This document shows, in pieces, positions 1,512 through 24,455 of a stretch of DNA of 64,000 bases; the first letter of the stretch is position 1, and each line of letters opens with the position of its first letter. Both the position numbers and the translations under genes were made by a program. Source of the DNA: Porphyra umbilicalis (Eukaryota; Rhodophyta; Bangiophyceae; Bangiales; Bangiaceae); NCBI GenBank assembly GCA_002049455.2, contig KV918767.1, positions 304,256 through 368,255 on the forward strand, given 5' to 3'. Under the pieces are notes generated by a model. It had not been told where the DNA came from. It did not search any database and worked only from the letters and a program-made list of their open reading frames with translations.

Positions 1512-1640
1512 GCATCGTCTGCTTTAGAGGAATTTCTCATCGAGGCCCATCAAGCCCCATCGGCCATCGAGATGTGGTTTCGATGGGGGGTTCAGGCCCC
1601 ATCGACACGCCCCATCGAGGGCACTTCTCGATGAGCCGAA
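1512..1640 (+). repeat. Left terminal inverted repeat and subterminal motif cluster
   Basis: Bases 1512-1533 match 11581-11602 in reverse complement without mismatch. Similarity continues imperfectly for another dozen bases. From 1536 to about 1640 the motif CCCATCGA or close variants recurs about six times in both orientations, including cgatgggg at 1580 and ccccatcga at 1597. Such subterminal repeats are the usual transposase-binding sites of CACTA-type elements. Confidence 0.8.
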
Positions 1641-2106
1641 AGTGCTCGAGCGGGACCTTGCGTCGATGAGGCCCGTTGGAACACACAGGCTCAGCGGCCA
1701 CGCGACCTCTATCACGTGCAACGAGTTCCTGCAACTCTATTGGACCAGCGGATGCGAAGAGACACGGCCTCTGATCCCGCACAGTGCTTACTGTGGCCGC
1801 GGTCTGCTGCCGTCGTTGCCGACAGTCATTCTTGCTTTGGGGAGTAGAAGCCCGACGGAAGCACAGTCGTGCCATCGCGACCTCCAGCCCATCTCTGTTC
1901 TCTCCACTCCAGCGGGCGTACACTGCCGGCGGGCCAGACTGCCAATGACGCGTTTCCCCCGCCTGTGTCAAACTATCTGCATCGCCGCCGAGCACGTGCG
2001 GCAGGGGGCTGGCCGTCGTGCTCGCCGCCCACCCGTCCAACACGTCAATTTACGTCGACGAGAAGGACTACAGATGCAGGTAGATAGCGAGTGGAATGCG
2101 CAATGT

Positions 2107-5100
2107 TTATACGTCCCACGTACAAAAGGCATTAAAAAAGTACCGCATGGCCACGCGCTCCTCCAGAGGAGCACCAACGTCAGCCGGCAGGGCGTCATAC
2201 CCCCTCCGCTCGGCGAGATCCTTGAAGTCTGGTACAATATGGGCCAACCGACGCACGGCGAACATGGGCACCGCGCACAGCGTCACATTGGCGCCTACCT
2301 CGCGCACGTGCCACTGTAGGCGAATGCAGCCGCGCGACACTAAGGGGCACTGCGAGTCGTGCGGCAGAGGCTTAAGGAGGCTCAACAGCCCCCAGTCCCC
2401 GTCGGCGCGACGTACGATGGCGCGCAGCTCACCGAGGCGCGGGGTATTGGGGGAGGCGGGCGCGTGAAAGAGCACCGCGTCGAACCACGGGGCGCCCCGG
2501 TAGTCGGGGTCGGCCCGCACCATCTGCTTGGTCTCGGTGCCGTCATCAAACCGCGCAGAAATGCGATGGCGCTTCACCAACCGCACTCTCACGTCCTCCG
2601 ACACACGCAGTGCAGCCGCCGCGCCGCCCAGGCCCGGTCGCTTTGCAAGCTCCCCGACCGAGATGAGCTCCAGGTGATACGGCTTCTTCATCTTTGAGGG
2701 GGCAGCGCCACGGGTAGAAACACCGCTTCCGCTCCCCCCCTGCACCCCCCCGCGAGCAGAAACGAGAGCGGCCGTCGCGGCCGCCGAAGCTGCTGCCGCG
2801 AGAGCTGCGTCCTCCCTGGTCTTGTCCGCCGCAGCGGCGGCGGCGCCATCGTCGGACGAGTCGTCGTCATCTGCTGCCGCGGCAGCCGCAGCAGCTGCGA
2901 TGCTGGCGGCAGTAGCCGCCGTAGAAGCAGCCGCCGACGCACGAGCGGCGCGCTCGGCCAGCTTGGCACGGTGCGCAGCGACTGCGGCGGCGTCCTCCTT
3001 TTGAAGCTTGGAGAGCTGTGCTCGCGTGCCATGGGACTGCCGCACAAGCTGCTGGGTGAACGTGACCAACGCCCCGTTGGTACGCATGTAGAACGGCTTG
3101 TCCGCTTTATGGCCGCTCTCGTTACTGTCCGTGTTGCAGTTGCGCAAGTTGCCGTGCAGCCGCACAGCTTCGGCGACGTGGCACAAAAGTTTGTGCACCT
3201 TTGTGGAGGTGACTTTGCCGAGGATGGGCGTGATGAACTTGTTGACGAAGTTGGTCGCCTGCTCCCCGAGCGAGATGCCCTCGGCCATCGACATCGGCGC
3301 AGGCACGGAGGAGGTGGCCGACCGGCTCATGCGTGCGTACAACCTGGCGTACTCGGCAAACATAGCCGTGACGGCCACGTCCACAGGGGTGTCCTGCCAC
3401 TGGGCGCGGTAGGCAGCCCAGTCGAAGTGGAAGTTCTTGTCCACCTTGTCCGTCTCCCCATCATCGTCAAAAAGGATGCTCTCGTCGCCCCCCGTTGGAG
3501 CTGCTGTACCGTCCGCAGCTGGTCCGCCGACGACACCCGTGTCGCTCTCTTCGGGTCCCAATGGGGCCCCTCCAGGCGCTGGGCCAAACACTCCCGGGAA
3601 GCAAAACGGAACAAAAGGGGTGGCGTCTCGTTGGCTTTTGGCCGTGAATATTTCCTGCTTTTCTTTCCCGGTGATAAAGTACCTGTAGGAAACAGGGAGG
3701 GCATGCCAGCACACTTCCACGCAAGTCATCGTGCTGAGCCGCGTTAGAAAATGGTGCATAAACAGACGAAGACGCGGCCACAGCTGGGCAGCGGACCGGC
3801 GACCCAGTGCAGCCGCCGCGAGCTTTCCAGCACGTGTGCAGGTGAGAGGGCCTCCTCAAGAGTCATCGTCGGCCGATACCGCCACCGCCATTCGTGGGTT
3901 TGCCACAAGGCGGCACTCCTCCTCACCAGACAGCTGCGTCTCTCCTTCGTTTGAGTCGCCCGTCAGGGCGATGGCGCCCAATGAGTACGCACCGCAAGAG
4001 CGGACGCAGGCACACCAGCAAACAGCGTCGCATATCAGAGTGGACAAACGACACTTACCCTGGTGGGGCCTTGCTTGCCTTGCTGCGTCGCCCGAGCCAC
4101 TGGAAGCGCACGTTGGTCACGCGACGCCCCGCCGTCATGGAGCCCGTCGCGGGCCTCACGCCGTTGCACATAAACGGAAAGACCCGCACCAGCCTCTGGG
4201 TCAGCATGCGGGTCACTCCCAAGTCCATCACCTACAGCGCATTGCAGATGTGTACAGAACAGATAAGGATTCGGAAAGGGCAATGGACTTGTCAGAAAAA
4301 CCTGACACAAGAGAGAGCCCTGCCAGTTGCACCTCGACTCAGAGCCGAGCCAAAAAAGAAGCAAAGGAACTTACGTGGAGAATGTCAAACCCAATCATTT
4401 GGTAGAGAAGCAGGGGCTCGGTGGACAGCCCGGCCACCCCCGCCAAAGCCGGCACAAAGCTCGTGAGACTGCCGACGGCCTCTAGCGCGACTCGTCGTTG
4501 CCGGTGACGTGACCGCCTAAGGTGCTCGGCCGCCTCAATCTGGCCTGCGAGCGAGTCGATCACGCCGCGCTTGGCAGCCGTCACGGCCACAGCCGCACCG
4601 GCCTCTGCCAGCGGCACCATACACGTGCTACACGGAAAGTCGCATTGGCCGGCCTTCAAGGCCAGGACCGCCCGCTCCTCGGGACGGTCGCAGAGGTAGC
4701 AAAGAACCCGTCCAAACACCTTAATCGTACGCCCCTTGTACTGCACGTTCATGCCGGTATGGCTGCACGACGCAAACTCGCGGAACGCCGCGTAGAGCAC
4801 GCGCTGGAGAACGCCGCAGCGGCGTACGCGGCCACGGTCATCGGCGGCAGGCTCCTCCAGCTTTTTGACGATTGGTATGTAGGCGATGGTGATCCACTTC
4901 GCCGCGTCCGTCTCGACGTTAAGAACCCTGATGCGGACGGGGTATAGTTTGTGGGCTGTGAGGATGGCGTGCAACAGGCAGTCAACCAACGAGAGAGTGG
5001 CAGGGCGTTAAGAGTTAGCATCATCCGAGAGACAAGAGTACATAGTGATGCAGAAAGACAGTGCACCCACACGAACACCAAGACGCAGTTGAGACTGGCA

Positions 5101-6317
5101 CGACCGCACGTACCTCCGGACCAAGACAGTTGGCTCGCGTCGCTGAATACGTGCAACGCGATGATGGCGCTATCCTCGCCATTCTTGTCCACAACCTCCT
5201 TCTCGCAGAGCTTGAACGCCTCGCCGTCAAACGGGGTCTCGCGGCTGTTGTCCAGCGGCGCTGGGCCCGACTCGCCGCTCCATCAGCGCACATTGTCGCC
5301 CGCCGCCTTGATCAGCGCCCGCGTCACGCCCAACGCGGAGCGAAAGTAAGCCTGGTACGGCTGTTCCAGCTCGACGAGCGTCACTTTTTTCCACCCGGCC
5401 TCGTTGACGGCCTTGTCAATGTCGTCCTGCAGCGCGTGACGGAAGGCGCCGACGTCGGGGAAGGCGTCGCGCAGCAGCTGGTAGTGTCCTGCGTCCTCAG
5501 GCATTCCCTCTTTCGTCCGGTCCCACACGTCGAGGAACTCATACAGCTTGGCCTGCTCGTTGAGCGACAGGCCCGCGCCGCCCGCCTCGAGCACAAAACG
5601 TTGCAGGGCGCGGAGGCAGAAGGAGTTAAACTTTCCGGTGAGAGGTGTCTTGCGGCGCGCGTCCGCCAACGGCGTCGCCCGCTGCACGTCTTTCAGCTCC
5701 TCATAAAGCACGCGCACGTGCGTCGCAATTGTGGAGTAGACAAACTCTGGCGACGACGCAACGGCATCATCGTCGCTGTCGGCGTGGTCGGTGTTGCCGC
5801 GCAGCGCCGCCTCGTCGATGCGGACACGCGTCAGCTCCATCAGCGCCCGCAACTCGGTTGCAATGGCAGCCATGCCGCTCGGGTCCATCGAGGAGGCGAC
5901 GGGGGGGATGGGGGGGGGGGGCGGGGTCCGTCGAGGAGTGCGGGGGCGGAGTGGGGCCCGCGATGGAACGGGGGGTGGGGAGATGGGGGGCATGCGGAGA
6001 CGCTGGGGTGTCCGTCAAGGCCCGAAGGAGAGTGGGAGTGGGGGGGCGAGGAGGGGTGCCTCGCCGCCACCAGCGTGATTGGCTCCTCCGGCATCGCGGC
6101 GGCCATCGTCCGCAGCAGACGACAATTCGCCACGGACAGCACGCTGCAGCGCCGCTAGATGGGGGGACGGCGGCTGCATGCGCTGGCGGTGCTGGCCATC
6201 CCCCTCGGCGCGCCCGTGCACCGCACGCTGGTGCCGGCGCAGGAAGAGGAGTTCTCGCGTCCGGTACCCACAGATAATACACTCTAGCTGCTGTGCCGAA
6301 AGCGGCACATCCGACAT
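2107..6317 (-). CDS. TNP2/Plavaka-like transposase (spliced)
   Basis: This is the likely transposase that moves the 10 kb element, acting on its terminal repeats in the nucleus. It starts at the ATG at 6317 (MSDVPLSAQQ). A C2H2 zinc finger, C-x2-C-x12-H-x4-H, follows at once. A helical block lies at about 5290-5890 (with FPDVGAFRHALQDDIDKAV). Next is about 5114-5250 with the FSDASQLSWSG motif, whose Asp is probably a catalytic acid. An exon at 4375-4955 starts AHKLYPVRIR and includes the Cys motif CDFPCSTC. An exon at 4059-4231 starts VMDLGV. A C-terminal block runs from about 3850 to the stop at 2107, ending near IVPDF. Clear intron borders are GTACGT at 5113 to AG before 4955 (158 nt), and GTAAGT at 4374 to AG before 4231 (143 nt). 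A further GTAAGT donor lies at 4058. The junctions near 5250-5300, 3850-4058 and 5900-6100 are not resolved. The gene looks largely intact. Confidence 0.72.
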
Positions 6318-8647
6318 GGTGGTGGCAGGCGGCGCCTCCCCTGCGTGCAATAGAAAACAACCAACAAAGAGCCAGCCAAGCGAGCATGACGACCACAGGA
6401 AGGGGATGTGTGCGTCAAGTTAGCGCCGGGCTCAGGTGCTCCACGGCGAGCCTCAAATGCTCTGCCGCACCACCCACATATGGAGCGACGCCGGCCAGGG
6501 GGCCGTCTCGACTGATGGGTATCCGGCCCACCCACCCCCCGCTCTCACCACCTAGGACAGGTGCCCTTACCGTTCGCACAGTTGGGGCCGCCGAGGCGCC
6601 CCTGCTCACATGCGGCACGACCCATGGTGCAAAGCCCGTCCCCATCGCCTGCAATACCGACTCTTGAGGCCCGCGCCACTCAACGAGAAAAGTTGCGGCC
6701 ATGGCACGAGGAGCCCAAGATGCAGGACCCCTCACGTAGCCCTGAGGCCGGAAAGGGGATTGTCAGAGGGGGCCGAAGGGGGATGGGGGGCAAGCCCCCG
6801 CGGGCACACTCACGGCCAGTGCCCCCCACAGGGGCGTCAGGGAGGGTGCGACGTCGAGCAAAGAGCTCTAGACCCATCGGCCGATGGGGCTAACTGAGCA
6901 GACCGGGACTGCAGGGCGTTGGCAACAGCGGGCGTGCAAGGCGAGCGCCGCCGCGACGGACGGTGCCCCCCACAGGGGCGTCAGGGAGGGTGCGACGTCG
7001 AGAAAAGAGCTCGAGACCCATCGGCCGATGGGGCTAACTGAGCAGACGGGGACTGCAGGGCGCTGGCAACAGCGGGCGTGCAAGTCGAGCACCGCCGCGA
7101 CGGCCGGTGCCCGCCACAGGGGCGTCAGGGAGGGTGCGACGTCGAGCAAAGAGCTCGAGACCCATCGGCCGATGGGGCTAACTGAGCAGTCTGGGACTGC
7201 CGGGCGCTGGCAACAGCGGGCGTGCAAGACAAGCACCGCCGCGACGGCCGGGTGCGCGCCCTTCTCCCAAAACGAGATCGGATCGCTCCATATTTGCCCA
7301 ACACCCGAAAATCGTATATTTGCGGCCACAGGTGCTCAACATTCCTGAATTTGATGTAACTGCATGGTGCCAAACCCTTTCCCGTTAAAATACGCCGGGA
7401 CCTGCCCACGGAACAGCAGCATGGACCCACATACGCTTCTGTAGATTTAGTCCCTGGCAGGGTTGGAAGGAGTTTGTGCAGTGATCGCAGTGTATGTATC
7501 GCATTGTACTAGAAGTACGGTCCGAAAAGACACAATCCGGCCAATTTCCACCGTGAGTCTCCGTCCGATGAGATCACGGGCTTGTGGCACCGGCGAGTGT
7601 GTGGCCGCCGCTGCCCAGCAGAACCCGCAACCGCGCCTGCCAGCAACCACCTGGCCGCCCGTGGGTCCCGTCGGTGCCGAGGGACCGACTCCGACGCCGC
7701 CCGTCGCCGTCGCTGAGGTGCCCCGTGACGTGCTTTGCGGCGCCCGGATAGAGTTCCCACGTTGGCTCTGGACACACGCCTGGAACCCGCGCGAGCAATT
7801 TGCGAAGGTAGGGGTTGACAGTGACGCGGGGGTGGCCAAGCGTATCAGCGCCGGAGGACCGAGTCGGCGTGCCGAGTGAGCTTTCTGTTCGGGAGGGGGG
7901 TGGGTGCCTGGGTGCGATGCGGGAGGCGAATCTGAGGGTGGCGTCCCGCTGTAATCCGACGCACGGAGGTGCATGGGCCTCGTTGTCGCGCAGGCGGGGG
8001 GACACCACGAGCGCCAAAGGCGGCCATGCGGGCCAAACCGTCTGGGCGACCCGTTGACACGTCCGTGCGTCGCTTTGCTCCCGCCTTTTCCGCCGGTGGC
8101 TTAGAGCTGACGGCGCTCCTCCGTCTCCCGCCACACGACCTTTGATCGGCTGCCCGTGTCTGCTTCTCCCCGCCCTTCTCTTTGCGCGCCTTTTTCCCCC
8201 ACCCACCCCGCGCGCGCGCGCCGCACCTCCCACACCCCCCCCCGGTGCTAGCAACGTCTTCTCACATGGCACGTTGAGGTGTTTGCAGGACCCGTCACCA
8301 GCGCGCACGACGGCGGGCGGCGCTTGGATGGGCGCGCGCCTCACGCCCGCCCCGCCACGCGCCCGGGCGGGGGCGCCGTGCGGGTACTGCTGCTGCCGTC
8401 GCTCAGGACCTGGGTGGTACAGCGGGGGCGGGGTGGACGGCCTATTTAATGGCTGTCCGACGTCCAACCTTGGCGCTGGTCTGCACAATGGACACCACCA
8501 CCCCCACCCGACCACTCCATTTGCCCACCCCCCCGACGACTGCGGCTCGCCTTGTCTGCCTCTTTATCCCCTGCCGCAACGTTCCCCCGCCCTTGTGGCG
8601 GCTCGCCCCCAACACCCGCCCACCACGCCGCCGGCAACCGGTGCGGT
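6318..8647. promoter_or_regulatory. Divergent intergenic spacer of the transposon
   Basis: This 2.3 kb lies between the two divergently transcribed transposon genes, so it must hold both promoters. It contains the three 144-bp palindromic repeats (6811-7250). A less GC-rich stretch at 7260-7520 includes tatttgcgg-type AT-richer sequence. I see no convincing coding region: open frames across the repeats merely repeat a 48-residue unit because 144 is divisible by three. Confidence 0.5.
6811..7250 (+). repeat. Three tandem 144-bp units, each with a 16-bp palindrome
   Basis: The segment gacccatcgg recurs at 6871, 7015 and 7159, giving an exact 144-bp period, and the whole unit is over 90 percent conserved by eye. 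Each unit contains the perfect palindrome CCCATCGGCCGATGGG (6873-6888, 7017-7032, 7161-7176). This palindrome is two back-to-back copies of the CCCATCG core that also fills the element ends. The location in the divergent promoter suggests a binding platform for a transposon protein. That role is inference. Confidence 0.85.
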
Positions 8648-11159
8648 ATGGGTGCCGCCCGCATGCAAGTCGTGCCTGTATCGGAGGAGGAGCGGGCGAA
8701 GGCACACGCGGAGGACGACGCCACCCGCAAGGCCGCAAAGGCCATGCAGGCGCGTGCCGAGAAGCGCGCGCGCCGCGGCGGGTCTGCGGCGTCCACGCAC
8801 CCACCCCCTCGCACCGCGAGGAGCGCGACGGTTCTTCCGGGAGTTGCCGCTGTGTCGGCAGGACGGACGACTGCAGCTGTTGCGCAAGCGGTTGTGGCTT
8901 CGGCCACGGGATTTTTTCGTCAACGCCCTGCACCTAGACCTGCTCAAAGTGCTCGTGAGGGCGGTGGCAGCGCGGGCGTCGAGGCTGACGAGGTCTCCGT
9001 GGCCCACTCGGCCCCGGCGGTGCTGGCGTCGACGGAGCCCAGGACTCTTGCCAACGGTGGCGAGTCGCAGTCGGTATACAACCTACCTGCACTGCTGCGG
9101 AAGAGGGGCGACCAGGGCTATGGGACGCCGGCGTCTCCGGGCTACATTCGGCCCGAAACGCCGCCACTATTGGACCCTGTGGTGGCTTCTTTTCTACCCC
9201 CGTCTCGGGCCGGCGTGCCTACGACGGGACCGTGTCGACCGCCACCTCGCCGATCGGACACCTCGTCAAGAGGGCTGTCGGCCGCCATGGGACGCGGTTG
9301 CTTGCCTCCCTTGGTTCGGCGGCCCTCTATCTCCTTTTCCGCACGAGACAGTTCTCCCCCACCCTGCGGTCGGCACGTTGCCTTCGCGTCTCAGCCGGTG
9401 GACGCTGACGCTGGCTTTCCGTCGCCAGCCAAGAAGGCCAAGCCCATGGTGGCAACCGTCGCAAAATCTATTACGGCCAAGGCGAAGCAGACGGCTGCAG
9501 CGGCGGCCAAGAAAGTGGGTGGGCCCGCATCCAAGTCGGGCGGCCAAAAGGCGGCCAAGACATTGAAGACGCTGACGCTGGCGACCTTAACAAAAGCCGT
9601 GCTCGACGCCGCGCGACCAGCGATGGCGCTTGCTTCTCGACAAGGCGCTGGCGCTGGCGGTGCTTCCTCGGAAGGCGACGCCGCCCCCATCGCGTCTGAC
9701 GTGAACGCGGCTCTTGTGCAGGCCATCGTGGACGGTCTGCAGCCAGTGATTTTGGAGGTCGTCGAGACGGCCAACAACGTCGAGCACCTGCGCGGCGACC
9801 TGAGCCGGCTGGCGAAGAAGGTCGAGGTGCAGGGCGTCGGCCACGAGATGACCGCGAGAGCGGTTGTGCAGTTGCGCGACGAGCCGCCGCCTGCGGTCAA
9901 GGAAGAGATGGCAGATAAGCCTGTGTTTGTCGCGGACTGCGATGAGGAGCCCATCGACGTGGAGCTTCTGTCACGTGCAGACAAGAACTACCGCGACATG
10001 GCGGTGGTGCGCACCGAGTTTCGCAAGACGCTCGAGGCAGAGACCGCGCACACCACCACCAGCCGCACTGTCCTCTACGGGCCCGACCGCCTGACGGAAG
10101 TCATGTCAGAGGTGGTGGAGCGCCTGCACAATAGCGATGCCGCAAAGGCCAACACCTACTTGTGCCAACCGACGGTCTTCCCCGTGCGAAACAAGGCCAC
10201 CAAGACGCAAATGGTTAAGGTCCAGAAGCGGATTAATGGGCACGTGTCGCACATGCTCACGGACTTCCGCAAAGTGGGCGCTACCTCCCTTTTGGGAGGT
10301 GCTCCAAATTGACGGGGAGAACATCCAGAAGGAGGAAGCCACCACGTGGCTCGAAAAAGACGAGTTCATGCTGTCGGAGAAGGGGCAGAGAGCGGTGGCG
10401 GCCGCCGCTAAGGGCTTCTTCCGGCGGGCGGGAGCGCACAACCGCATCGTCGAGGGGACCGGGCTCGGGGGGGTGGAGCACGTGTCGATGACCGTGGGGC
10501 ACTTTATGCTCTTGGGAAGCTTTGCGCGGCATGAGCTGATGGTGGCAGCGGGCCTCCGACCGCGCCACCGAGCGGGCAGCGCCGACGGCACGTACAAGTG
10601 GTGGTGCGAGGAGGCGGTGGCCGTGCGTTCGGTCATGCCGTCCGACTCCCGTGTCTTCAACGGAATCAGTATCGTTGACGCCAAGGACCCGCGCCGGTAC
10701 GACATGGTGCTCATCCCGGCCGGCTCGTTTTCGGCCTCGGATTCCAACCCGAGTGGTGGCAGCGACTCGGTCTGGCCGGGCGGTCGTGCACCGTCTGGAC
10801 CACCCCGTCGTCAAGGCGGCCCTGCCGATGGGGGGGCTCCTGCTGGGCCCGCTGACGGGAACAACGGCAGCGCTGCGCTCAACGCAAACTGCGACGACAA
10901 CGGCGATGAGTTTGGGGATGCCGACCTGCTCCCATTCTCGCCCGTCGCCTCCGGGGCGGCGGGGGAGGCAATGTGCGGGGAGATGCAAGGCGTCGACGAT
11001 GAGGGTGACGGTGCGGCCGACGAACAACATGATAGTGATGCGGGGGACGTCGATGACGAGGAAGGGGATGAGGATGGGAGTGGGGATGAGTACGCGACCG
11101 AGGGTGGCGAAGGACGGGACGACGACGTCGGCCTCGACGGCGCGGACCTCATTCTTTGA
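8648..11159 (+). CDS. Transposon accessory protein, function unknown (two frames)
   Basis: I do not recognise this protein. The first in-frame ATG (8648) begins MGAARMQVVPVSEEE. The first frame runs to a TGA at 10310-10312 (554 residues). It is basic and Ala/Lys-rich (KKAKPMVATVAKS, AAAAAKKVGG), then has a helical section with NVEHLRGDLSRLAKKVEV. Reading continues in the +1 frame from about 10290 to 11159, with plausible globular sequence (GENIQKEEATTWLEKDEF, WWCEEAVAVRS) and a strongly acidic tail ending GLDGADLIL. The frame change falls on a 7-bp hairpin (10283-10300), not on a G/C homopolymer. It could be a sequencing indel, a tiny deletion or recoding. Its position opposite the transposase, in the slot where CACTA elements carry a DNA-binding TnpA-like partner, suggests a DNA-binding helper. 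That role is inference. Confidence 0.55.
10283..10300 (+). other. Hairpin at the frame junction of the accessory gene
   Basis: ACCTCCC-TTTT-GGGAGGT forms a perfect 7-bp stem with a four-base loop. It lies ten bases before the stop of the first frame, in the short window where both reading frames are open. Confidence 0.6.
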
Positions 11160-11459
11160 GGCAGCTGTGTACTGCAGTTTAGTGTGACATAGGTTCCATT
11201 TAGTAGTGTGACTCAGGTCCTTTTCTCGGCGCTGCTCAAACGGTGTCCCCCGTCGTAGTGGCAGGTAGAGCGGTGGAACGACGGCGCGCAGAAAAGCAGT
11301 AGTAGCGCACCGCGGGGAACAACAACCGTACTGTTGCGCTCTCTCGCCGGGGCACATCATTGGCTGGTTTAGACATTTAGAACAGCCTTGCCATTGGACG
11401 TTCTCTGGGCGTTGTTCCACATCCGTGATAGTCACGAGTGATCTCACCTGTGCAAGCCT

Positions 11460-11602
11460 TTCGGTCGAGCAAGGAGAAGCTCATCGAGCTCGTTTCTCAT
11501 CGAGATCCGCATCCAGACTGTATCGAGGACCCCTTTCGATGGGGTGTTCGGGCCCCATCGAAACCAGGCCTCGATGGGGCATTCCTCTAAAGCAGACGAT
11601 GC
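11460..11602 (-). repeat. Right terminal inverted repeat and subterminal motif cluster
   Basis: Bases 11581-11602 are the exact reverse complement of 1512-1533. Further inward, several CATCGAG/TCGATGGG motifs occur between 11480 and 11575 (for example tcatcgag at 11481, cgatgggg at 11537, ccccatcg at 11552, tcgatgggg at 11571). This mirrors the left end. Confidence 0.8.
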
Positions 11603-22316: not shown

Positions 22317-24455
22317 CTACCGCATGCGACGGACTCCCCGCCCACCCCTGTTCATCATCCCCCCCATACCCCCCCCGCGACCGCCGCCGCCCGGTGGTCC
22401 AGGCACCCCAGGCTGCTCGCTCTTGGGGTTCTTAATCGTCTCGTCGACGGCCAGGATTTGGCACGCCGCCTCCGTGGCCGCGGCCAGGGCGTTGAGCTTG
22501 ACCACCGCCGGCTCCCACACGGCCTTGGCCCAGGTGTCGACGACCGAGGCCGAGTCAAGGTCGACCCCGTAGCAGTGGTTCCCGTCGGCCGACGCGTGCG
22601 CCGCACGGAGCTTGTTGAGCACCTCGGTCGAGTCAAAGCCGGCATTGTCGCACAGGGTGCGGGGGATGACCTCCAAGGCGCGCGCGTACGCCGACATGAT
22701 GAGCTGGTCCTTGCCTTCAATCTTGACCGCCGCCGCCCGGATGTGGCGAGACAGGTCCATCTCAATGGCTCCGCCGCCGGGCACCGCCGTCGGGTGCTTG
22801 ATGGCGCGGCGGACGATCATGATGGCGTCGTGGAGGGACCGCTCCGACTCCTCAAGGAACTGGTCCGAGCCACCCCGCACGATGATCGTCGCGGACTTGG
22901 CCTTCGGGCAGCCAGTGAAGACATTGTACCGCTCCTTGCCGAGCTGACGCTCCTCAAAGCGCCCACACTCGCCAAGGATGTCCGCGCCCCCGTCCTTGAG
23001 GTGGTTGACGGTCGTCTGCACGGAACCGCCGACCGCGCGTTGCACCCGCCGCATGTCCTCCTCGGCGACGCGGCCCGCACAAAAGATGTCGCGGTCCGCA
23101 AAGTACTGCGTCGCCACGTCACCAATGGCCAGGCGGGAGAGCACCACCTTGGCGCCCGTGTTGACGCACGCCGCCAGCTTGGCGTAGATAATGCCCCACT
23201 CCGCGTCGACAATCGCCTGATAGTCGGCGGTGGAGTTCACGCGAACCTCGGCATTGTCCTTCTCCGCCTTGAGCTCCAACTCGAGGTTGAGCAGCATGAC
23301 CTTGGGATGGTCAAAGCTCTTGGGCTGCTGCTCGAAGCCGGCGTACGAAAATGTCTTCTTGAATGCCACCCCCGTCACAAGTTGAGAGTCGGTTGTCGAG
23401 CCGCCGTGCACCTTCTTGATGCCAACCATGGAGACGTCCAGGGAGTCGGCGTCAAGCGTCAAAACCGCGTCCGTCACAATGCCCGCAAAGAACTCCCTTT
23501 GGTGGGAGACCAGCTTGGAGTTGAGGGATGTGCCCGCGCAGCGCATTAGCATCTCCCGCCGCTCGGTTGGATTCGTACCCATAATGTCCCGCGCAACCTC
23601 CCGGATGCGAGCGTCGGCAAGCTGGCCAGCCTTACGGAAAGCCCGAATGAGGACCTGCGAGTGTACGCCGTCCTCAATGAACTACCAGCAGCAAAAGATT
23701 GAGAAACAGAACCACCGCAGGCGCGTACGATGCCAGTAAACAACATTGCCCAAGATATAGTAGTGCATCGAACATTCAGGTCAGAGTCTGTTCTGCGGAA
23801 CTCACAAGACCACCACTCGCCGCGCACCACATGGACCACATGGAATCCAAGACCACCTAGCATTCCACCGAGACCGCACCGCCCGCATACCTCTTTGCAT
23901 TTGTTCATCATCTCCCCAGCGAGCAGGATCACCGACGTGGTGCCGTCGCCAACCTCCGCGTCTTGGCTCATGGAGATGTCCACAAGCGTCTTGGCGGCAG
24001 GGTGTACGATTTGCAACAGCTGCACAATAGTCGCCCCATCGTTGGTGATGGTTACCTTCCCGCGGCCCTCATGGATGAGCTTATCCAGGCCGCGGGGGCC
24101 GAGCGTCGTCCGCACCAAGTCAACAACCGCATTGCAGGCGTTAATGTTGGAAATCAGGTGCCCTTTGCCCTGGGAGGTGTCGGTCCCATGCTTGAGCAGC
24201 ACGATCTGAGGCGCCTGCGCTTTGGAAAAAATGAGTACAGAGCGAACCAGCAGAGCGGATGAAAAAGAAAGACACCGATGCGACAACCAGACGAAGAGGA
24301 ATCGGCGGTGTGAGATGGATGTACCAATGTGGCGATGAGCGGCGCCTGGCCGCATCGCTGGCTCCATCGACCGCCAAACAAGGCGCAAACAACCGCAGAG
24401 AGCAGCAGGAGCCCGAAAGACCTGAGCAACAGCAACGTACCAAAAACTGAGACAT
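22317..24455 (-). CDS. CCT7: Chaperonin CCT subunit eta
   Basis: This is the eta subunit of the cytosolic CCT/TRiC chaperonin, which folds actin, tubulin and WD proteins with ATP. Three exons: 24441-24455 (MSQFL), 23891-24214 and 22317-23681. Donors are GTACGT and GTATGC, introns are 226 and 209 bp, both phase 0, and the protein has 567 residues (family about 545). Group II chaperonin signatures are [30 protein letters not shown] and [11 protein letters not shown]. Subunit-specific eta features are [19 protein letters not shown] and the near-terminal [10 protein letters not shown]. The tail is Gly/Arg/Met-rich. The gene is head-to-head with RPA2. Confidence 0.97.

Follow-up and report, generated by a model that had tools for sequence, protein, structure and literature searches.

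Two diverged groups of Plavaka transposons occur in the genome of Porphyra umbilicalis, and both carry a second gene, divergent from the transposase, that belongs to one new protein family. The reading we favour, with a probability of about 0.6, is that this gene (gene 2) encodes a DNA-binding partner of the Plavaka transposase, with TNPA-like functions in end pairing and regulation. Judged from the sequence, a DNA-binding role of either kind, TNPA-like or VANC-like, is very likely. The element analysed here spans positions 1516-11598 of the window, a stretch of 64,000 nucleotides (69% GC), with an AT dinucleotide duplicated at both borders. When its nature as a transposon, its ends and its class are taken together, it is almost certainly a DNA transposon of the cut-and-paste type, belonging to the Plavaka group. 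The genome searched comprises 83.8 Mb in 665 contigs, and the window copy is designated C7.

Ends, target sites and copies of the element

The features of the window copy are as follows.

1514-1515: left target-site duplication, AT (16 of the 17 copies in the insertion table are flanked by AT on both sides)
1516-1533, plus strand: left terminal inverted repeat, CGTCTGCTTTAGAGGAAT, 18 bp
1546-1616: left subterminal repeats, CCCATC at 1546, 1556, 1598 and 1611, GATGGG at 1582
2107-3682, minus strand: transposase exon 5, with HKLLCH (H4H) and E (SNESGH)
4059-4231, minus strand: transposase exon 4, splice borders kept in C1
4375-4955, minus strand: transposase exon 3, with second D (CDRPEE), C2C (CSTC) and the Pfam Plavaka match
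5114-5885, minus strand: transposase exon 2, with first D (FSDASQLS) and a stop at 5283-5285; 5' border (exon 1/2) uncertain
6216-6281, minus strand: C2H2 finger CIICGYRTRELLFLRRHQRAVH in exon 1, from sequence reading; ATG at 6317, exon end uncertain
6812-7251: tandem array separating the divergent genes, 3.1 copies of a 144-bp unit, with CCCATCGGCCGATGGG at 6873-6888, 7017-7032 and 7161-7176
8648-11159, plus strand: gene 2, with N-terminal region, coiled coil, conserved helical core (about 9716-10730) and acidic C-terminal tail
11538-11578: right subterminal repeats, GATGGG at 11538 and 11573, CCCATC at 11554
11581-11598, minus strand: right terminal inverted repeat, pairing with CGTCTGCTTTAGAGGAAT, 18 bp
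11599-11600: right target-site duplication, AT (same basis as on the left)

The preliminary description gave the element 22-bp perfect terminal repeats. These are present as stated, and the 22-base pattern, offset by 3 bases and with up to 3 mismatches, had no match in 100 shuffles, but the true repeat is the 18-bp CGTCTGCTTTAGAGGAAT flanked by the duplicated AT. The outermost GC of the longer repeat is due to chance, since other copies carry different bases there. The subterminal motif CCCATCGA, already recognised in that description, occurs seven times in the element on either strand, six of them within 150 bp of an end.

Both the target-site duplications and the empty sites to be expected of such a transposon were found, the latter for a sister family. 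Two insertions of a sister family (C100 and C149, transposase 65-66% identical) are informative: C100 is flanked by AG on both sides, and C149, flanked by AT on both sides, is inserted in a repeat listed at about 30 further places; all 12 empty copies fetched from these read GCGCACA-AT-GACTG, with a single AT. Because of these empty sites and the AG/AG flanks of C100, we take the duplication to be 2 bp and the termini to be CGTC...GACG. The one tabulated copy that does not have AT on both sides, C64, has lost its left end. In C34, a reading frame running across the insertion speaks for a single retained AT, an observation that is suggestive only. A search with the joined flanks of the 17 copies found no empty site. 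Longer duplications (GC-AT, CATG) were considered and rejected, as the flanks past the AT disagree between the two ends in most copies. The repeat targeted by C149 (present in C206, C122, C114 and others, about 30 listed places) is at least about 120 bp long and 90-98% identical between places; it is possibly the end of another mobile element.

GACGAT likewise terminates C235, C395 and C93. It is found at least once within about 2 kb on the right side in 10 of 10 further gene-2 elements sampled (C16 and C36 being ambiguous), a count that has to be read knowing that a six-base word also arises by chance and that only some sites in this 10-element sample adjoin end repeats. In the distant group treated below, GACGAT at the alignment border ends C234 and C323, C123 and C268 are alike, and C62 is ambiguous.

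Further copies with the same ends exist in the genome, so the lack of a second copy cannot be held against a transposon. Three additional copies are full-length (C550, C393 and C1, respectively 99.2%, 98.9% and 82% identical to the window copy), and C159, C63 and C83 are remoter relatives. C550 has its right flank in common with the window copy and a different left flank, probably through a contig-end overlap or mis-join, and was for this reason left out of the insertion table. Copy pairs with a common flank (right, C7/C550 and C93/C575; left, C516/C405 and C137/C57) are probably contig overlaps, duplicates or assembly mis-joins. Eight copies of about 1.0 kb, forming one main group, match the window element at the ends only (left about 94-107 bp, right about 155 bp), with the left subterminal region (1546-1616) in common. 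Seven of them are mutually 95-99% identical and the eighth, C533, is about 80-81% identical; all eight carry CCCATC in their outer 160 bp and none has it in the middle. C115 is a copy of the 1-kb type interrupted twice by other DNA (about 9.7 kb and 1.0 kb), and a second element related to that of C395 (ATCGTCACTGCCC...) starts 8 bp past the right end of the latter as a tandem insertion.

The element had also been described as whole. This is true of its structure but not of its coding capacity, which is lost in both genes: the window copy is coding-dead because of the in-frame stop at 5283-5285 in transposase exon 2, absent from the other three full copies, and a gene-2 frameshift near 10270. 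Both mapped frames are open in only one of the four full copies, C393; C550 is broken in transposase exon 5, and C1, like the window copy, in both genes.

The GC-rich photosynthetic host proposed from the letters alone is borne out by eight light-harvesting matches at E<=1e-10 in the genome. For one of these, PDB chains 7y5e_42 and 9vfj_11 tie for best, and for another the best chain is 7y5e_52; we take 7y5e to come from the red alga Porphyridium, and these best matches suggest that the host belongs to the red algae or their wider lineage. Elsewhere in the window, an open frame on the minus strand (22320-23681) resembles, by eye only, a CCT/TCP-1 chaperonin subunit.

The transposase and its place among superfamilies

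A spliced minus-strand transposase had been proposed, and its introns (5113-4956, 4374-4232 and 4058-3683) indeed have GT-AG borders, all of which hold in the 82%-identical copy C1 too. The spliced exons 2-5 of C393 encode 1033 residues without a stop and score 30.2 bits against the Pfam Plavaka model (cut-off 26.3), in agreement with the Plavaka type first suggested; no other Pfam family appears at E<=1. Exon 3 of the window copy alone scores 21.7 bits, under the cut-off. Of 123 Plavaka matches in the genome, 118 are above it, one of these only together with its neighbours. The residues D, D and E, with C(2)C and H(3-4)H between the second D and E, are found as in Plavaka, the choice of catalytic residues following from the motifs and their order and not from a structure. 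The motifs FSDASQLS, CDRPEE...CSTC and HKLLCH...SNESGH recur in relatives from both transposase groups, and dN/dS between C393 and C1 is 0.16. The structure model of the transposase is poor (pLDDT 52.6), and its top three fold matches are RAG at E 0.02-0.05, which is not significant. Viral contigs searched with the transposase gave no confirmed relative. As for the N-terminal C2H2 finger of the preliminary description, it can be read by eye at 6281-6216, but Pfam finger models match it below their cut-offs.

The suggested TNP2/KDZ assignment does not hold, as Pfam gives only Plavaka at E<=1 and the duplication is 2 bp, within the 2-3 bp of Plavaka and not 7-8 bp. Neither the CAC..GTG ends, nor the 3-bp duplication, nor the TNP2 match of EnSpm/CACTA elements was found, and the 2-bp duplication and the transposase are not those of KDZ elements (7-8 bp duplication, KDZ transposase). 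The part of Kojima (2025, PMC12730594) available to us groups Plavaka with CACTA/Mirage/Chapaev/Transib (CMCT; EnSpm, Transib/RAG1) and describes D, D, E with C2C and H4H for the Plavaka group. The same part reports 7-8 bp duplications for Kyakuja and Zisupton and no sequence similarity between Plavaka and KDZ transposases. The KDZ elements (Kyakuja, Dileera, Zisupton) are thus like the present ones in being transposons able to carry extra genes, and differ in their duplications (Kyakuja, Zisupton) and transposases.

Fungal PlavakaA and PlavakaB are alike in Pfam match, in D-D-E with C2C and H4H, and in the 2-bp duplication. Their termini, TGT..ACA and CATCA..TGATG respectively in the same portion of Kojima (2025, PMC12730594), are not those found here (CGTC..GACG), and by its termini we would file the element in neither. 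The CATC of PlavakaB resembles the AT-CGTC seen here, which often has a C before it; however, the empty sites of C149 place the AT outside the element. That source also names TET/JBP as cargo of some fungal Plavaka families, in place of which a divergent gene of a new family is found here. Plavaka had been described at the outset as best known from fungi; the group is in print outside fungi, being recorded in the accessible text of reports on the green alga Auxenochlorella (PMC12633428) and on Amoebidium (PMC11244446). Plavaka itself is therefore already known, including from a green alga, and the new part is the second gene.

Gene 2, its two branches and the end motifs

The long opposite-strand gene seen at the outset is real, though frameshifted in the window copy. 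It forms one frame of 836 codons in C550 and C393 and has one internal stop in C1. Between C393 and C1 its dN/dS is 0.28, with a C-terminal tail free of constraint; among three copies about 99% identical, which differ by few changes, the ratio is above 1.

No recognisable family had been seen for this gene, and we found no Pfam match at E<=10 and no fold match. When the alignment of 26 members was compared to Pfam, eight families appeared at E<=0.1 with 1-2 of the 26 members each, and one PHROG match (E 0.0037) concerned a single member; all were judged to be chance. The one PDB match below 0.001 for the gene-2 profile, a designed coiled coil, was rejected. Viral contigs searched with one gene-2 protein held no confirmed relative. 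AlphaFold2, given the 26 aligned near-branch sequences, produced a model with mean pLDDT 79.9, which shows a long helix at the N terminus and a core that is mainly helical. The core lies mostly at pLDDT 83-95 from residue 81 on, apart from one drop to 63; a fold search with the model returned no PDB chain and no viral model at E<=0.001. By sequence or fold (Pfam, PDB, viral models), gene 2 showed no relation to known DNA-binding proteins and no relevant relation to a known partner protein.

The helper had been presented as the feature of one special element. Instead, gene 2 is a protein family paired with Plavaka transposases genome-wide. With a core query of 338 residues, 96 matches (115 of 115 candidates scored) were obtained and merged into 90 loci, 68 of which have a transposase in divergent orientation no more than 15 kb away (median 5.0 kb); one is convergent, one is on the same strand, and 20 have no listed transposase within that distance. 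About 5 of the 90 loci would be paired by chance in any orientation. The transposase list holds 150 matches of 311 candidates, which makes the pairing counts lower bounds. Among these 150, a divergent near-branch gene 2 accompanies 9/9 transposases with at least 60% identity to C393, 43/53 at 50-59%, 13/16 at 45-49%, 3/7 at 42-44% and 0/65 below 42%. Within this near branch, gene 2 and transposase also co-diverge: over the 8 pairs with both sequences the Mantel r is 0.90 (6 of 40320 permutations as high), three close pairs carrying part of this value, and without the close family the Spearman coefficient is 0.55 over 62 pairs.

The 65 of 150 listed transposase matches that are 35-41% identical form a distant Plavaka group (for example C234:104600-113100 and C323:65300-72300). 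That this group has no gene 2 was considered and rejected. Upstream of its transposase, C234 has a divergent frame of 466 codons that scores 43.5 bits against the near-branch gene-2 profile (controls: best of 2000 shuffles 5.9, best of 123 window frames 5.8) and is, by sequence comparison, a remote gene-2 homologue. The single-protein core search of the genome missed this far branch. Searched against the genome, the C234 frame has at least 110 matches (91 of 112 candidates scored) in 69 loci, among which 30 are divergent from a listed transposase, 2 on the same strand, 1 convergent and 36 without a listed transposase, about 4 being expected by chance. A recount that added 22 transposase matches, chosen manually in knowledge of the second-gene contigs, put 42/69 in divergent orientation and is not relied on. 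The transposases paired with the 30 divergent loci all fall in the <42% bin, the higher bins being unrepresented. Each second-gene branch therefore goes with its own transposase branch, the near and far groups being defined by identity, not by a tree. Taking both branches together, a divergent second gene accompanies at least 98 of the 150 transposases listed.

The motif CCCATC-N13-GATGGG lies near an end in six of seven near-full-length elements (C7, C1, C159, C235, C395 and C100, not C63). An internal inverted CCCATC pair is present in five of the seven (C7, C159, C100, C235 and C395), about midway, at 5.4-6.2 kb of elements 9.9-11.2 kb long; first-order Markov shuffles contained one in 2-3 of 300 for each positive element. 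As the pattern was chosen after C7 had been seen, the other six elements are the test, and four of these have it, C235 and C395 being related. In C159, C100, C235 and C395, the intergenic placement of the pair is judged from its position in the element and not from mapped gene starts. No internal pair was found in C1 and C63, both near full length, in C83 at spacers to 10, or in the partial stretches of C262, C52 and C73, which cover part of the intergenic region only. Its inner bases track the end motif of the family: CCCATCG in C7 and C159, CCCATCA in C100, and CCCATCCA in C235 and C395. The 144-bp tandem array of the window copy, with its CCCATCGGCCGATGGG palindromes, is a candidate operator. 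Gene-2 families with end repeats other than CCCATC also occur: C478 has CCCGTTCA-like repeats, C16 and C36 are ambiguous, and the distant group (C234, C323) has CAGTAC-type repeats at the right end, with no CCCATC in the C234 stretch read.

Possible roles of the gene-2 protein

Because many related elements in the genome carry gene 2 divergently beside the transposase, it probably works together with the transposase and is not simply carried along. Its lack of known relatives and the loci without a listed transposase within 15 kb (20/90 and 36/69) would suit a host gene or unrelated element carried by chance; nevertheless, the divergent layout in 68/70 and 30/33 loci with a listed transposase nearby, and the agreement of the gene-2 and transposase distance matrices, leave this explanation a negligible probability.

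We propose that a DDE transposase, encoded by a spliced gene and bearing a zinc finger at its N terminus, would cut the CGTC...GACG ends, insertion making a 2-bp duplication that is nearly always AT. The divergent gene 2, which appears to be standard for Plavaka elements here, would encode a coiled-coil and helical-core protein that most likely binds the family-specific end repeats (CCCATC-type) and helps end pairing. The same protein would most likely also bind the internal inverted motif pair between the genes and regulate both, a role comparable to that of TNPA in En/Spm. The window copy, with both frames lost while its ends are kept, would be mobilised only by proteins in trans. In CACTA elements, as far as the available text of PMC2613891 goes, cutting is done by TNPD, while TNPA attaches to the subterminal repeats and has a regulatory role; neither is dispensable, and little similarity is seen among TNPA-type proteins of different elements. 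The elements described here are like En/Spm (TNPA and TNPD) in having two element proteins, conserved ends, fast-changing subterminal repeats and partner proteins with little similarity between elements. En/Spm differs in its 3-bp duplication, CACTA ends and alternative splicing, whereas the duplication here is 2 bp, there is no CACTA and the partner is a separate divergent gene; no homology was found.

VANDALs are Mutator-type elements and differ in this from ours, but VANDALs with VANC, known from Arabidopsis, are alike in having an extra gene, a family-specific repeated motif and a tandem array. Gene 2 might be a VANC-like anti-silencing factor, binding noncoding motifs and lifting host silencing with no role in cutting or joining. 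In the accessible part of PMC5735166, VANC targets are often tandem repeats that vary between related elements; the motif here likewise lies in an intergenic tandem array and at the ends, and differs between families. However, its most regular feature is the N13 inverted pair by the ends, which is kept in geneless copies and fits the reaction itself, and we regard a VANC-like role as unlikely. We give still less credence to binding of the end repeats by the C2H2 finger of the transposase, with gene 2 serving in assembly, nuclear import or target choice. Finger-like transposase N-termini in both groups (by eye) agree with it, as does the lack of a recognised DNA-binding fold in gene 2, yet the finger alone leaves the retention of gene 2 and its co-divergence with the transposase unexplained, and the supposed Plavaka group without gene 2 is refuted by the homologue of the C234 branch.

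In the literature on Plavaka and red algae, as far as the accessible portions of these sources extend and with Repbase outside the search, we found no such Plavaka partner gene and no red-algal Plavaka described. The chances are close to even, if slightly against, that gene 2 founds a new DNA-binding family with an undescribed helical fold, serving the Plavaka elements of this algal lineage as their usual second protein and diversifying along with its recognition motifs. If so, these elements would provide a ready-made series of protein-motif pairs, and gene 2 would join TNPA and VANC as a third type of partner protein encoded by transposons. The gene-2 family has a well-predicted core of no known fold and matching DNA motifs in several families; with protein family and motifs paired in this way, it becomes directly testable why transposons on the CACTA side rely on partner proteins that are unrelated.
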